Below are positions 5,056 through 13,917 of a stretch of DNA of 50,210 bases, one piece after another (within the stretch, counting starts at the first letter, position 1; every line of letters starts with the position of its first letter). Both the position numbers and the translations under genes were made by a program. This stretch comes from a virus, in IMG/VR virus record IMGVR_UViG_3300045240_000072, positions 1 to 50,210 of that record; one strand, written 5' to 3'. The notes under the pieces were generated by a model. The model was given only the letters and a program-made list of their open reading frames with translations, was not told the origin of the DNA and made no database searches.

Positions 5056-5903
5056 GACTGCACCCCAAAGATCGCGTCGTGTACCTGCGGCACAAGATCA
5101 GCGCGCGGGGCCAACGCCGGCAAGTGCGGGAACCCGAACCGCTGCAATACCGCGTCGACATGCTCTTTCGTAATCTGGCCAGACGTAAGTGCGGCCGTCA
5201 CTTTTGGCATAAGCTTGATAAACGTCATCGGGCCTGCAGGCGCGGCCGGAACGCCAGGTGGTGGGGGCGGTGCGCCGGGTACGGGCGGCGCTGGCGGGGC
5301 GGGGATCGCCATCACTTGCCGCAATTCAGCGGTAACCCGTGCGATTTCCTCGTCCGATACGCCGCGCTTGTTACGCCATGTCGCATCGGCGTTTTGCGTC
5401 TTCGTCGACGCATGAATTCGGCTATCCCACGGCAAGCCGTTTTTATCGAGAGGGACAAGGCTCGCTTGGGGTGCGGCAACAGTGCCCGGCGCAGCGGGAA
5501 TTGGGGGCGTTACAGGCAGTAAGGATGGGGCAGCGCCAACAACCGGAACCGCCGCAGTAGATGCACCCGTTACCGTACCGCCCGATGCGTTTGGGACGGC
5601 GAAGCTCGCCAGGTCGGGATCGATGCCGGTTGACGGGTTGTCGGCCGGTGAAAGGATCGCGCCGCCGAATGCAGCAAGGTCCGACGATACTGTATGTTCA
5701 ACATGCACAGTGACCGGCAGCTTACGACGGGCACGATCCGCTTCGGCCAATTCAGCTTTAACGGTTTGCACGGCAGGCGAATCCAACATGCCCTCGGCGA
5801 TCTTTTCCGCATTCCCCGTTTGCATCACGGCGACGAACGCGGCCAGGGCGGACCACTCCCGCTCGGTCGTTTCTGCCGCATTCAGCGTTATATTAATTCC
5901 CAT
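5052..5903 (-). CDS. Ala/Pro-rich early protein, 283 residues
   Basis: This is the first gene of the leftward operon. An N-terminal helical region (about 1-75) is followed by low-complexity Ala/Pro/Val stretches. A conserved-looking core reads LPWDSRIHASTKTQNADATW near residues 157-176 and is followed by a helical ATAEL/RQVM segment, a Pro-rich linker and a C-terminal helical domain. The LPWDxRIHAS block recurs in many phage early proteins of unknown role. ATG 5903 is chosen because GGA lies 8 bases upstream; an in-frame ATG at 5948 would lie inside the -10 region of the opposing promoter. It lies upstream of the nuclease and SSB, which hints at a DNA-transaction role. Confidence 0.75.
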   Translation of the reverse strand: MGINITLNAAETTEREWSALAAFVAVMQTGNAEKIAEGMLDSPAVQTVKAELAEADRARRKLPVTVHVEHTVSSDLAAFGGAILSPADNPSTGIDPDLASFAVPNASGGTVTGASTAAVPVVGAAPSLLPVTPPIPAAPGTVAAPQASLVPLDKNGLPWDSRIHASTKTQNADATWRNKRGVSDEEIARVTAELRQVMAIPAPPAPPVPGAPPPPPGVPAAPAGPMTFIKLMPKVTAALTSGQITKEHVDAVLQRFGFPHLPALAPRADLVPQVHDAIFGVQS

Positions 5904-5915
5904 AATTTCATCCGA

Positions 5916-5944
5916 TTGGTTAGTAGGAAGTCGTAAGATATGAT
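5916..5944 (+). promoter_or_regulatory. Rightward early promoter
   Basis: The plus strand has TTGGTT (5916-5921), a 17-base spacer and TATGAT (5939-5944), ahead of the rightward early operon starting at 5980. It overlaps the leftward promoter, with the two -10 boxes sharing bases 5939-5940. Confidence 0.6.
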
Positions 5945-5963
5945 ACATTAACTAAAACGTCAA
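5935..5963 (-). promoter_or_regulatory. Leftward early promoter
   Basis: The minus strand has TTGACG (5958-5963), a 17-base spacer and TATCTT (5935-5940), a good sigma70-type promoter for the replication operon starting at 5903. Its -10 overlaps the -10 of the opposing promoter, so the two probably cannot be occupied together. Confidence 0.65.
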
Positions 5964-5979
5964 CAGGAATTTTTCAAGT

Positions 5980-6333
5980 ATGGAACTTACCGTAGAGATT
6001 TTACAAAACATGGTGGCGGAACTCCTGAAAAACGCGCCGCCGAAACAGAATTTAATAGTTCATGCGGGAACGGCGTATTTGCTCGATGACGTACCCGATC
6101 CGTATTTTATTCCACTCGATATCCCGAAGTTTGAAATCACGCCACGCATGCCCTACCTCGGGACATATGGCACTATTATCGCGGACCCGATGTCGATGTG
6201 CCACCTCGTCGACGCAAGCCTGGTGCCCGACGCCCGACCGATCCGCCTCAGTTTGCGCCACTACCTCAAGCATTACGGCTACCGCATGTATACTGCGATC
6301 AAACGTCAACGCCGCGAGCGCGCATGTCGGTAA
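5980..6333 (+). CDS. Hypothetical protein, 117 residues
   Basis: The first gene of the rightward early operon. It begins MELTVEILQNMVAELLKNAP and contains a DDVPDPYFIPLDIPKFEITP segment, then a basic C-terminus (IKRQRRERACR). AGGA lies 11 bases before the ATG. Its 3' end overlaps the helicase start by 10 bases. No known family; the acidic-to-basic layout suggests a soluble protein. Confidence 0.7.
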   Translation: MELTVEILQNMVAELLKNAPPKQNLIVHAGTAYLLDDVPDPYFIPLDIPKFEITPRMPYLGTYGTIIADPMSMCHLVDASLVPDARPIRLSLRHYLKHYGYRMYTAIKRQRRERACR

Positions 6334-8884: not shown

Positions 8885-9051
8885 AAACGAACGAATCGCC
8901 GTGGCAAGAATATTTCAAACTCAGATTCGAAGCGTTGGTCGAAGAAGCCGCCGAATATGGCTTCGTGGCCACGGTTGAGCAATGTCCGTTGTTGCCGCTC
9001 AAAATGGGCAACTACGAAACGGTCGTAACGATTCGGGAGATGCGATCATGA
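8881..9051 (+). CDS. Hypothetical protein, 56 residues, GTG start
   Basis: A short ORF linking the VRR-NUC and cupin-like genes. The GTG start overlaps the upstream stop (GTGA) and the TGA stop overlaps the next ATG (ATGA). The product begins MKTNESPWQEYFKLRFEALV and ends VVTIREMRS. The double overlap and protein-like composition make it a real gene. No family was recognised. Confidence 0.75.
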   Translation: MKTNESPWQEYFKLRFEALVEEAAEYGFVATVEQCPLLPLKMGNYETVVTIREMRS

Positions 9052-9491
9052 ATCGAATCGTACGACATTACTTCGCCCAAAAACCCGATGTTACTATCGG
9101 TTCGCCCGACGACCCACACTTATTGCGTTGGTACGTCATACCGCGCAATCGGTTCTTTAACATCTACCTGCATTTGTTTCTGCGTAGCGATAATGACCGG
9201 GCCTTACACGATCATCCTTGGCTATTCAATCTCTCAATTTTGCTTGAGGGCGAATATGACGAGATAGTCACATCGGGCCGCGCTCGGCGCCACGCCGGAC
9301 AATGGAAACTTCGTATTGGTCCTGCGCCGCATCGTTTAGAACTCGTAGACAAACAATTTTGCTGGACGCTTTTTGTTACCGGGCCGCGCTATCGGACATG
9401 GGGGTTCTATTGCCCGCAAGGTTGGATACCTTGGATGGAATTTACCAAAGCGGATAATCCCGGCGAAATCGGGCCGGGGTGCGGTGAATGA
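9048..9491 (+). CDS. Cupin-like phage protein
   Basis: A 147-residue protein with the pattern of a small beta-barrel (cupin-type) fold. DRALHDHPW (about 55-63), APHRLEL (about 100-106) and TGPRYRTWGFYCPQGWIPW (about 117-135) carry histidines that could bind a metal. ATG 9048 is chosen because it overlaps the upstream stop; an ATG at 8982 is in frame but lies inside the previous gene. Such proteins are frequent in phage early regions and remain uncharacterised; the substrate is unknown. Confidence 0.7.
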   Translation: MNRIVRHYFAQKPDVTIGSPDDPHLLRWYVIPRNRFFNIYLHLFLRSDNDRALHDHPWLFNLSILLEGEYDEIVTSGRARRHAGQWKLRIGPAPHRLELVDKQFCWTLFVTGPRYRTWGFYCPQGWIPWMEFTKADNPGEIGPGCGE

Positions 9492-9679: not shown

Positions 9680-9969
9680 AATTTAAACCGGAAGACCGCA
9701 AAGCGCAGATTATCGCCGAAGCGTTGCGCCAGGCTCGCCAGCGTGGCTATCAGAACGTTCGCGTCGAGCATATCGCCGAGGTCTTGAGCATCACGCCGGG
9801 CCTGATCTACCACTATTACAAAACAGTGCCGTTGCTCAAGCGGGCCATTATGGGCGCGGCCATCGCGCAGCGGGTACCGGAGATCGTGGCGCAAGGGCTC
9901 GTGTCTAAAGATCCGCGTGCGCTGAACGCGCCGGACGAGCTGAAGGAATTGGCGAGGGCTACGGTATGA
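9676..9969 (+). CDS. Orphan TetR-type helix-turn-helix protein
   Basis: The 97-residue product matches the N-terminal DNA-binding domain of TetR repressors. AQIIAEALRQARQRGYQ is helix 1, VRVEHIAEVLSITPGLIYHY contains the helix-turn-helix (about 29-48), and YKTVPLLKRAIM follows as helix 4. A full TetR protein is about 200 residues with a ligand-binding and dimerisation domain; here only about 45 further residues follow. It overlaps both neighbours by four bases, so it is not a decayed fragment. TetR domains bind palindromes of about 15 bp, the size of the operator in the four accessory promoters, so it is a candidate regulator of them (inference). Confidence 0.8.
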   Translation: MKFKPEDRKAQIIAEALRQARQRGYQNVRVEHIAEVLSITPGLIYHYYKTVPLLKRAIMGAAIAQRVPEIVAQGLVSKDPRALNAPDELKELARATV

Positions 9970-10407: not shown

Positions 10408-12690
10408 ATGCGCTCACTTCCCGACGCCCTGGCGCCTTTGGCCGCCTACCGCCAATTTATCCTTTGCAAGCTCGTTCCGAACGGTGCGAAAACGCTAAAA
10501 CTCCCGTGCGATTGGCGAACCGGGCAACCGTGCGATGCTCACGATCCCCAATTCTGGTCAACGTTCGAGCATATCGCCAGCGTTGTCGTATCAAATCCCG
10601 AACAGGGCTATTGCGTCGGCTTCACGTTCACCGCGCATGATCCATTTTGGTTTATCGACATTGATCATTGCTGGACCGGAACAACCTGGACACCGATCGT
10701 TTATGAACTGTGTGGTCAACTCGCTGGCTGCGCGTCGGAAATATCGCAATCCGGAACGGGCCTGCACCTTTTTGGTCGTGGAACGCCGCCGACGCTTCGG
10801 CGCATCAAAGACCACACAAACCAACTGTTCGACCTGTACACCGAACGCCGATTTGTTGCGCTCACCGGTGACGGGGCGGCCGGCGACGCGAATACCGACC
10901 ACACCACCGCGTTGGGCACAATTGTCGCGAAGCACCTCACGCCTACTACGCCAACGCAGGCCGCGAGCTGGACAACCGAGCCGATGCCCGAGTGGCGCGG
11001 TCCGACCGATGATGACGACCTGATACGCCGGGCGCTTATGTCCGCCGGCCTGTCATCCTTCGGGGGCGCTACGTTCGCCGACCTATGGCAATGCAACGTT
11101 GACGTGCTGGCGCGTGTGTATCCCCCCGATCCGAACTCGTCCGATGCGTTCGGCGCCAGTACGGCGGATAGCGCCCTCGTGTCTCACTTGCTGTTTTGGA
11201 CTGGTAAGAACTGCGAACGTACCCGCGAACTGATGAAGCGGTCCGCCCTCGTGCGCGACAAGTGGCAGCGCGAGGATTATCTCGAACGGACGATACTCAA
11301 AGCCGCCGCCGTTGTGGCCAAAGTGCTACAGGATAAAGAGATCGCCCCGCCGGTGACCGTCTCGGCGCCGACGAGCATCGCGACCAGTACGTTCGTGCCG
11401 TCTCAAAAACTCGGGGAGGTGTTCGCCGGCTGTGTGTATGTCCAGGATAACAATGCGATGCTGATGCCGACCGGTAAGATCATCGATCAACAACGGTTCA
11501 ATATGCACTTCGGCGGTATGGCGTTCTGCCTGGACGCCGAGAATGACAAGATCGCTAAACATCCGTGGGACGCGTACGCAAACAACCGGGTGACCCGCTT
11601 GCCGCGTGCCGAATCGACATGCTTTCGTCCGGACATGCCGTTTCAATCGTACCTTGACATCCAGGGCTTGAGCTTCGTCAACGCGTACAAACCGCCTGTC
11701 GTGGCGCGCAAACCAGGCGATCCAACCCCGTTTATTACCCACATCCGCAAATTGCTGCCACATGGCGATGACGCATTGATTTTCATTTCCTACATGTGCG
11801 CAGTGGTCCAGTATCCGGGATATAAATTCCGTTGGGCGCCGTTCCTGCAGGGCGTGGAAGGTAACGGCAAGGGCTTGATACTTGAAGCGTTGATCCGCGC
11901 GTTGGGCGACAAATATGTGTTCATGATCGGCCCGGACATGATCGCCAACGGTTTCAATGCCTGGGCAGAAAACAACGTCCTGTATGTGGCGGATGACATT
12001 TTCCGCACCGACAACCGGGAAACAATGATGGATGGCCTGCGCCGGTACATTACCGAACAACGGCACCCGGTGACCTATAAGGGGATCGACGCCACGAACA
12101 AGCGCATTTGCGGCAATTGGGTGTTTTTCGATAACCACGCTGAGCTGATGCGTATTACTGATAAGACACGGCGTATTTGCGCGTTGTATTGTGAGCAACA
12201 GCACGTATACCAACTCGAATCGTCCGGATTGAACGAATCATATTTCAATTATTTTTTCATTCCCTGGTTGAACAATGGCGGATATGAGATCGTGGCAGAT
12301 TATCTGCATACTGCGCCAATCGACCCCCGTTACAACCCGGCCGGCGCATGCCAGCGCGCACCAAAGACAACCAGCACCGCGCTCGCCATCGCCGACGGCC
12401 GCACCGTGTTTGACGCAGATCTGGTCGAGTGGATCGAGACGGGCGAACCCGGGTTTTGTGGTGGGTATATCAGCGTTACGATGCTTAAGCGGCGCATGGA
12501 CAAGCCGCCATCATCGGTTCGCTTGCGGCAAATGCTGGGCGCCCTCGGATACGTTGCGGCGGGACGTGTGTCGCGTAAGGTACACCCGGACGAGGCGCAA
12601 TCGATTATTTACGCCAAAATCGGGATGGTTGTTGTGGACCTGGCCGCCGAATACGAAGCGGCGCAATTACGGGGAAATTTCCATGCATAA
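10408..12690 (+). CDS. Primase-helicase with SF3 helicase domain (DUF5906-like)
   Basis: A 760-residue replication protein. The N-terminal 250 residues resemble a primase-polymerase-type domain, with WFIDIDHCW (about 75-83) and EISQSGTGLHLFGRG (about 110-124) as likely catalytic segments. The C-terminal half is a superfamily 3 helicase: Walker A GVEGNGKG (about 480-487), Walker B VLYVADDIF (about 525-533) and motif C WVFFDNH (about 571-577). It would unwind DNA and prime synthesis for the family A polymerase. The 3' end overlaps the start of a 51-residue ORF. Confidence 0.9.
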   Translation: MRSLPDALAPLAAYRQFILCKLVPNGAKTLKLPCDWRTGQPCDAHDPQFWSTFEHIASVVVSNPEQGYCVGFTFTAHDPFWFIDIDHCWTGTTWTPIVYELCGQLAGCASEISQSGTGLHLFGRGTPPTLRRIKDHTNQLFDLYTERRFVALTGDGAAGDANTDHTTALGTIVAKHLTPTTPTQAASWTTEPMPEWRGPTDDDDLIRRALMSAGLSSFGGATFADLWQCNVDVLARVYPPDPNSSDAFGASTADSALVSHLLFWTGKNCERTRELMKRSALVRDKWQREDYLERTILKAAAVVAKVLQDKEIAPPVTVSAPTSIATSTFVPSQKLGEVFAGCVYVQDNNAMLMPTGKIIDQQRFNMHFGGMAFCLDAENDKIAKHPWDAYANNRVTRLPRAESTCFRPDMPFQSYLDIQGLSFVNAYKPPVVARKPGDPTPFITHIRKLLPHGDDALIFISYMCAVVQYPGYKFRWAPFLQGVEGNGKGLILEALIRALGDKYVFMIGPDMIANGFNAWAENNVLYVADDIFRTDNRETMMDGLRRYITEQRHPVTYKGIDATNKRICGNWVFFDNHAELMRITDKTRRICALYCEQQHVYQLESSGLNESYFNYFFIPWLNNGGYEIVADYLHTAPIDPRYNPAGACQRAPKTTSTALAIADGRTVFDADLVEWIETGEPGFCGGYISVTMLKRRMDKPPSSVRLRQMLGALGYVAAGRVSRKVHPDEAQSIIYAKIGMVVVDLAAEYEAAQLRGNFHA

Positions 12691-12838
12691 GAGTGCCATT
12701 TACGAATATCAACGGTGGGTTCGCCTGTTTCTTGATCAGGCGAACGATTTGCCCGTCTTAGGGTCGGCGCCTTGTGACAACATCGATTCGATCGCGGCAT
12801 CCAAATCAGAAACCCAGTCCGGCGAGCCGTGCAAGTAG
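12683..12838 (+). CDS. Possible 51-residue protein, overlapping a convergent gene
   Basis: ATG 12683 overlaps the primase stop by 8 bases. The product begins MHKSAIYEYQRWVRLFLDQA, which is protein-like, but residues after about 22 lie opposite the 3' end of the minus-strand zinc-ribbon gene (overlap 12736-12838). The N-terminal half may be the remaining part of an early gene cut short by the incoming minus-strand gene. Confidence 0.45.
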   Translation: MHKSAIYEYQRWVRLFLDQANDLPVLGSAPCDNIDSIAASKSETQSGEPCK

Positions 12839-13104
12839 GCTTGTTGTAATTGGAAAAACCTCTCGTGTAACTCGAACGGTATGCTTATTGCGAACAAGCA
12901 AGGATTTCCTGCAGCCTTGTGTTTCGCGTAATACCGTATCGAATCGTTCTGTGCGCGCTTTTTCGCGGCGTACTCTTTCATACATTCCACACAATTTCCC
13001 GTAGAGACGTATCGAACGCCTGTGTGTCCGCGGCGGCATGGTGCGCCTGTCGAGTACGTCTTTCCCCCTAGTTCCAATGCCGAAATTCTAGGATCCGCGC
13101 TCAT
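12736..13104 (-). CDS. Zinc-ribbon protein (HNH-associated N-terminal motif)
   Basis: A 122-residue protein. Near the N-terminus it has CRRGHTGVRYVSTGNCVEC (about 23-41), the four-ligand Cys/His ribbon often found at the start of phage HNH endonucleases. No HNH core follows; instead there is a helical C-terminal half (FELHERFFQLQQAYLHG...). ATG 13104 is preferred because GGGGA lies 8 bases before it; the in-frame ATG at 13119 has no such site. It is transcribed alone from a strong promoter in the flanking inverted repeat. It may be a DNA-binding regulator or a degenerate homing-type protein. Confidence 0.75.
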   Translation of the reverse strand: MSADPRISALELGGKTYSTGAPCRRGHTGVRYVSTGNCVECMKEYAAKKRAQNDSIRYYAKHKAAGNPCLFAISIPFELHERFFQLQQAYLHGSPDWVSDLDAAIESMLSQGADPKTGKSFA

Positions 13105-13139
13105 AATTAAATTCCCCATAAATGTAGTCGGAACGTAGC

Positions 13140-13168
13140 ATTATAACTAGCAAACACCAATTTCGCAA
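13140..13168 (-). promoter_or_regulatory. Promoter for the zinc-ribbon gene
   Basis: The minus strand has TTGCGA (13163-13168), a 17-base spacer and a perfect TATAAT (13140-13145). The -10 lies about 36 bases before the chosen ATG. The promoter is on the outer flank of the left inverted-repeat arm. Confidence 0.7.
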
Positions 13169-13302
13169 CCCCCTATAATTCATTTCAGACTATATTTATA
13201 CTATATATTCTAACGCGAGAGAATCTTATTATAAATAAAATACGTATAACATAATCATAGTCTGAAATGAATTATAGGGGGGTCGAAAATCACCGTTTGC
13301 TA
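13148..13302. repeat. Long inverted repeat with AT-rich centre
   Basis: A perfect 25-base inverted repeat (13169-13193 and 13257-13281) is flanked by a further imperfect match that includes an exact CTAGCAAAC/GTTTGCTAG pair, giving arms of about 45 bases. The 63-base centre is almost pure A/T, in sharp contrast to the rest of the genome, and holds a small ATTCT/AGAAT inverted repeat. Promoter-like sequences lie on both outer flanks and face outwards. This may be an operator, a cruciform-forming replication origin or a small inserted element. Confidence 0.9.
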
Positions 13303-13315
13303 GCTATCGTGCTAT
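13282..13315 (+). promoter_or_regulatory. Candidate weak promoter for the terminase operon
   Basis: The right flank mirrors the left promoter: GTCGAA occupies the -35 position and TATCGT the -10 position. The match to consensus is much poorer than on the left, so it may need an activator or be used late. The terminase gene starts 40-50 bases downstream. Confidence 0.35.
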
Positions 13316-13356
13316 GGTTTTACCGTACCGTAACGCTGTGATACGATGTGGCCATT

Positions 13357-13917
13357 ATGACGCCCGACCAAATCGCCTTATTCGACCGATTAACGCCACT
13401 TCAAAAAGAGGTTGCGACGAATGTGCTGTCTGGAATGAAACCGATTGATGCGTACCGGGCGTCGAGCGGGAAAGCCAAGGACGACAACTCGCGAAGTGCG
13501 GCGGTGAATCAAATCTTGGGCAATCTTAATGTGGTCGCTTTTATGAAATCGGTACAAATCCCCGCCGTGGATAGCGGGATAATGACGCGTGACGAGGCGT
13601 TACGGCGTCTCTCTGCGCTGGCCCGTACGCAATTGTCGGAACTGGTAATTTTTACCGAAGCCGAAATTCAACGCCCGAACGGCGGGACGGAAATTCAAAC
13701 GTTGTGGTCAATAATCCCAAGCGCATTGCAAGATCCCGAAAAGCTAGCCGCTATCGCCGAATTGACCGCAACGAAGGATGGCCCGAAGATCAAACTACAC
13801 TCGCCGCTTGCCGCGATAAAACAAATTGCCGAAATGCAAGGGTGGCTATCGCCCGAAGCAAGCAATCCTCAATCCGACAATATCCTGGTGATTAAAGGCG
13901 GTTTGCCCGATGCCTGA
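13357..13917 (+). CDS. terS: Terminase small subunit
   Basis: The 186-residue product starts the packaging module and directly overlaps the large terminase by 8 bases. The N-terminus (TPLQKEVATNVLSGMKPIDAYRASS) matches the small-terminase helix-turn-helix opening that binds packaging sites. Downstream regions EALRRLSALART and SPLAAIKQIAEMQGWL are typical of the family. ATG 13357 is used; a GTG at 13348 is in frame and equally possible, and neither has a strong ribosome site. Small subunits recognise phage DNA and feed it to the large subunit. Confidence 0.85.
   Translation: MTPDQIALFDRLTPLQKEVATNVLSGMKPIDAYRASSGKAKDDNSRSAAVNQILGNLNVVAFMKSVQIPAVDSGIMTRDEALRRLSALARTQLSELVIFTEAEIQRPNGGTEIQTLWSIIPSALQDPEKLAAIAELTATKDGPKIKLHSPLAAIKQIAEMQGWLSPEASNPQSDNILVIKGGLPDA

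Follow-up and report, generated by a model that had tools for sequence, protein, structure and literature searches.

The region that separates the terminase small subunit gene (terS) from a leftward zinc-ribbon gene in the analysed window, the whole 50,210-nt stretch of IMG/VR virus record IMGVR_UViG_3300045240_000072, harbored a mirrored element with an AT-rich core. As judged from its anatomy, its conservation and its gene neighbourhood, this element is probably, with limited confidence, a phage replication origin in which an AT-rich unwinding region would lie between inverted candidate protein-binding arms. The record, from an uncultured phage, displayed its own terminases and structural genes, and no close public relatives of the window were found. 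From left to right, the gene order was primase-helicase, leftward zinc-ribbon gene, element, terS and terL (Table 1). Some 0.5 kb, including the zinc-ribbon gene, separated the 3' end of the primase-helicase from the start of the core, and gene annotation bore out the placement after the primase-helicase and ahead of the terminase given in a preliminary description of this DNA. Solved relatives of the primase-polymerase/helicase comprised both primase chains and helicase-region chains.

Table 1. Coordinates of the element, its neighbouring genes and related features in the window and in other genomes.
Feature	Genome and position	Strand	Remarks
NrS-1-type primase-polymerase/helicase	window 10408-12690	+	HBD and DUF5906 domains
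Divergent zinc-ribbon protein	window 12736-13119	-	127 aa, phrog_1081-like; possible origin-binding protein or regulator
Left arm	window 13136-13205		outer TAGCA-N7-TAGCA; TTTCGCAACCCCC box at 13161; perfect 25-bp part 13169-13193
Leftward sigma70-like promoter, TTGCGA-17-TATAAT	window 13140-13168	-	inside left arm; 10/12 match
AT-rich centre, candidate DNA-unwinding element	window 13194-13256		lowest GC of the genome; homologues: L020 core (same orientation), L003 core (inverted)
Right arm, mirroring the left	window 13245-13314		perfect part 13257-13281; TAGCA pair runs leftwards from 13314
Probable terS promoter, extended -10 TGATACGAT	window 13339-13347	+	followed by GTGG; shortly 5' of the ATG
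Terminase small subunit (terS), late operon start	window 13357-13917	+	ATG at 13357
Mid-domain fused to zinc-ribbon gene beside core	L003 9160-9774; L004 2726-3340	-	
Separate mid-domain ORF and zinc-ribbon gene beside core	L123 12636-12857 and 12830-13693	-	
Second AT-core/GGGTA block copies	L017 13512-13572; L129 13195-13257; L130 15254-15319; L016 ~300-360; L133 12296-12359		

The perfect 25-bp inverted repeat with imperfect extensions, as reported in the preliminary description, was confirmed and proved to be enclosed by a wider repeat with arms of 70 nt and 79% complementarity. It was the longest perfect inverted repeat of the 50-kb genome (runner-up 16 bp) and far beyond chance, since the longest one in ten first-order Markov copies of the genome measured 14 bp. 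Single-strand folding of the element gave a z of -9.95. The centre, previously described as 63 bp of nearly pure A/T, was indeed 63 nt long, its composition having been slightly overstated (13 G/C, i.e. 79% A/T); it contained CGCGAGAG and, at 13215-13223, the central motif GCGAGAGAA. The 80-nt GC minimum of the whole genome coincided with this core (0.20), the next-lowest place reaching 0.30. That second place (about 5902-6197) lay at the other divergent junction, where the leftward recombination genes meet the helicase operon. The second longest perfect repeat (16 bp, 1869-1904) enclosed a short loop and is possibly a terminator.

Of the two outward promoters proposed earlier, the leftward one, considered strong, was present but by itself not above chance: two sites of its 10/12 class were found, against 1.2 expected by chance per region. 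The rightward one (GTCGAA-17-TATCGT) was weak, as had been stated (6/12), but a better terS promoter was located elsewhere, in the form of an extended -10 to the right of the arms. The TACGAT/TATGAT-GTGG part of this extended -10 was encountered in two relatives as well, as TGATACGATGTGG in the window and L005 and as TATGATGTGG in L020.

Relatives were collected by primase and terminase searches. Four lineages displayed a mirrored element at the same position, again with terS on one side and a leftward zinc-ribbon gene on the other: the window, L003/L004/L011, L020-L024 and L005/L028, the last in an imperfect version. Conservation in related phages, the absence of which had been named beforehand as speaking against the element, was therefore present. 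Arm sequences mostly differed among the four lineages. Arms of L003/L004/L011 were perfect over 49 bp, and those of L020-L024 consisted of SACGGCA iterons and GAGGCTTTTCCATACCGG. TAGCA repeats and a TTTCGC[AT]ACCC box were common to window and L003 arms, and in those sequences were confined to the element; ACGGCA iterons were common to L020 and L005 arms. As the same layout occurred in four lineages with only partly shared arm motifs, the sequences indicate that the arms drift, both changing together, while the architecture persists. Within L003, L004 and L011, the 189 nt of arms and core were identical, the genomes differing by 2.0-3.6%; simple arithmetic puts the chance of such identity at about 0.001 for the largest genome difference. 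Distant terL relatives (most of L026-L096, many of them low-GC phages) were without the inverted repeat; these appear to be different phages, with no bearing on the element.

The core itself was not always found in the same orientation. Compared with the window core, the L003 core (9839-9929) reached a score of 58 as reverse complement, a value attained by none of 1000 resampled cores, versus 31 in forward orientation (p 0.15). The L020 core fitted the window orientation best (forward p 0.005, reverse p 0.04). Accordingly placed was the centre motif, which read GCGAGAGAA in the window, TGCGAGAGAA on the opposite strand in L003 and TGCGCAAGAG in L020. Since the L003 core aligned only as reverse complement and the L020 core in window orientation, a flip of the core between its arms has probably taken place in one lineage. 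Orientation was uniform across L003, L004 and L011, and this single orientation gives no sign of frequent flipping.

Eight complete phages with homologous primases were also examined: Stenotrophomonas phage B2, Shewanella phage SppYZU01, Acinetobacter phages LAPP1 and Scuro, Klebsiella phages KpV79 and RCIP0033, Edwardsiella phage PEi21 and Pantoea phage AAM22. In all eight, an AT core separated terS from a leftward, divergently oriented gene and coincided with the GC minimum of the genome or came close to it. The core was the genome-wide minimum in the window, B2, SppYZU01 and PEi21, and was among the three lowest-GC places in LAPP1, KpV79, AAM22, Scuro and RCIP0033. Several genes separated the primase from the core in KpV79, LAPP1 and PEi21. 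To the right of the core, the distant phages shared a conserved GGGTA...CAACGACTTAG block, roughly GGGTATTAAGGGTAAATAG...AAAATCAACGACTTAG...ACCC. Leave-one-out profile models recovered this block, with E values between 4e-9 and 0.28, at the core in all nine seed genomes or loci; it was the best match in seven of them (weakly in B2, E 0.28) and the second best in AAM22 and KpV79, behind their own second copy. The full model also matched beside the divergent zinc-ribbon gene in the non-seed loci L099, L123 and L072/L074/L075. No profile match was obtained in the window's own clade, where mirrored arms were encountered instead. The words ACCC (23) and GGGT (18) were enriched in the flanks relative to 5.7 expected each, but their orientation bias was not significant, and a strict rule of ACCC to the left and GGGT to the right was rejected.

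A second copy of core and block was found in five distant genomes (KpV79, PEi21, AAM22, LAPP1 and RCIP0033), and a single copy only in the window and several relatives. In KpV79, LAPP1 and AAM22, the second copy lay upstream of the neck/tail operon, was followed by a similar extended -10 and resembled the terS-side copy of its own genome. Position 1 of the public KpV79 record (L017, NC_042041.1) falls inside the AT core.

The zinc-ribbon protein of the window displayed the pattern C-x2-GH-x3-RY-x3-G-x-C-x2-C. Ribbon domains of phrog_1081 type were found in the leftward neighbour in 7/7 relatives scanned, B2 having four of them; in Scuro, merely a looser Cys/His pattern was visible. For the window and B2, the gene next to the core was the sole zinc-ribbon gene found in the genome. 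Invariant residues were C, H, G, R and Y, typical of ribbons, with no invariant Asp or Asn. Identity with endonuclease VII or HNH nucleases was rejected, the phrog_1035 match spanning just the Cys/His region, and a nuclease role of the protein seems unconvincing. Comparison with the PDB gave no match by sequence, nor by fold for the AlphaFold model, which was of moderate quality (mean pLDDT 69). The N-terminus of the protein in L003/L004/L011 was a copy of the mid-domain of the primase-helicase (residues 2-75 versus primase residues 328-402, 47% identity, E ~2e-21), and in L123 the zinc gene overlapped at its 3' end with a separate small mid-domain ORF. That two arrangements, fusion and overlap, join the same two parts suggests that the zinc-ribbon protein works together with the primase-helicase. 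The idea in the preliminary description that this protein may go with the arms is thereby indirectly supported, as it is by the place of the gene next to the core in the relatives. No AT core with inverted repeat was found at most of the distant zinc-ribbon loci, so the ribbon domain alone is no predictor of the element. At L198 and L201, two other zinc-ribbon loci, a different inverted repeat, TTAGCAAGTTATATAAAACTTGCTAGGCT, preceded the zinc-ribbon match by about 110 nt.

In the proposed origin, the AT-rich core of about 100 nt would be the stretch that melts and the mirrored arms would be inverted initiator binding sites, the initiator probably being the neighbouring zinc-ribbon protein and/or the NrS-1-type primase-helicase itself. 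With both sides bound, the core would open and two oppositely facing primase-helicase complexes would be loaded, which would lead to bidirectional replication. The outward promoter beside the arm would drive the zinc-ribbon gene and the separate extended -10 the terminase operon; because the outward promoters adjoin the arms, initiation and transcription could share one control point. As generally expected of phage origins, a conserved AT-rich region with repeats was found near replication genes, the repeats being candidate initiator sites. Among the three options offered in the preliminary description (replication origin, master switch or mobile insertion), the origin was best supported, from the conserved anatomy. 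GC skew, proposed as a check in that description, tracked gene direction or was about zero both raw and at 4-fold sites; it displayed no origin signature and was uninformative.

In the origins of PICI/SaPI satellites, two sets of repeats flank a presumed melting region rich in A/T, which lies close downstream of the primase-helicase gene pri-rep, and terS can be near (PMC6092414). Likewise, repeats flank an AT-rich region in the window. In contrast to the satellite origins, a single mirrored pair (perfect over 49 bp in L003) was encountered here rather than iteron sets only, the divergent zinc-ribbon gene separates the primase from the core, the core was inverted in one lineage, and the replicon is a whole phage instead of a satellite island inserted into the chromosome of its host. 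By analogy the element resembles PICI/SaPI origins; it was not classed as a PICI origin because of the whole-phage replicon, the mirrored arms and the zinc-ribbon gene between primase and core. Deep-sea phage NrS-1 has a homologous primase-polymerase, which also comprises helix-bundle (HBD) and helicase domains (PMC8718748, PMC7102993), but there the primase is followed almost directly by terS, without a zinc-ribbon/AT-core module. Its primase, the best-studied homologue, recognises the short motifs TTTGGTTA and GTGG/GTGA (PMC8718748). Such sites (TTTGGTTA, GTGG) were rejected as a feature of the element: GTGGGG was found beside the core in L003 arms, and none was consistent across lineages. 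An AT-rich centre, inverted initiator sites and divergent promoters are also known from oriS and oriL of herpes simplex virus and from other viral palindromic origins; with herpes simplex virus the likeness is an analogy of layout only, virus and proteins being unrelated.

The master switch remains the main rival of the origin. According to this alternative, which was judged possible but rather unlikely, the region would control divergent and late transcription and have no replication role; the arms would be paired operators at which the zinc-ribbon protein, or some other regulator of the phage, would switch the zinc-ribbon gene on the left and the late operon on the right, and the AT core would be bending or UP-element DNA. 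Promoter-like outward sites in and beside the arms agree with such control, as do the constant position between divergent genes ahead of terS and the second copies of KpV79, LAPP1 and AAM22, placed as they are before a late operon. However, about 100 nt at 10-25% GC exceeds the needs of a promoter, the late promoter forms an element of its own on the right-hand side of the arms, and the window and several relatives are single-copy. The neighbouring protein, moreover, was joined to a primase-helicase domain and not to a transcription domain, which counts against a mere switch. The second copies, which are the strongest evidence against the origin, would represent either two origins in those phages or a late-operon control region, and a combined role in origin function and transcription control is possible.

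A packaging (pac/cos) or terminal-resolution site, with the terminase or a resolving enzyme recognising the repeat, was regarded as improbable. It would suit the location directly upstream of terS and the start of the KpV79 record within the AT core, but for most other relatives the public record begins elsewhere and several relatives carry a second copy in mid-genome. Protelomerase sites are spacer-free palindromes and cos sites are compact, both unlike arms separated by 63-91 nt of A/T spacer. A mobile, MITE-like insertion, compatible with inverted-repeat ends and deviant composition, was rejected as very improbable, as no further copy was found in the window genome, an exact scan of IMG/VR for the arm retrieved none, the flanks displayed no target-site duplication, and diverged relatives hold the same position with different arm sequences; the dispersed copies and target duplications expected of insertion elements were missing. 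Among public phages, BLASTN retrieved nothing related to the region.

For most tailed phages whose replicase is a primase-polymerase, no origin is known, and literature searches covering Jedunavirus origins and inverted-repeat origins in phages retrieved no description of such an element. The element might tentatively be taken to represent an undescribed, widespread origin class, characterised by a mirrored and occasionally inverting AT core, in which a dedicated zinc-ribbon initiator would open the core and recruit the NrS-1-type primase-helicase via a borrowed copy of the mid-domain of that enzyme. The fusion of zinc ribbon and primase-helicase domain offers a direct molecular hypothesis for this recruitment. 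With a position-conserved core, a searchable block and a candidate initiator, cultured phages of Klebsiella, Edwardsiella, Pantoea and Shewanella become amenable to tests of initiation. Should the element be an origin, ordinary phages would share a layout that has been called unique to PICI satellites, and this would bear on the provenance of the satellites. The replication module of the window also included a cysteine-dioxygenase-like protein (8982-9491; phrog_4786, E 2.7e-49).
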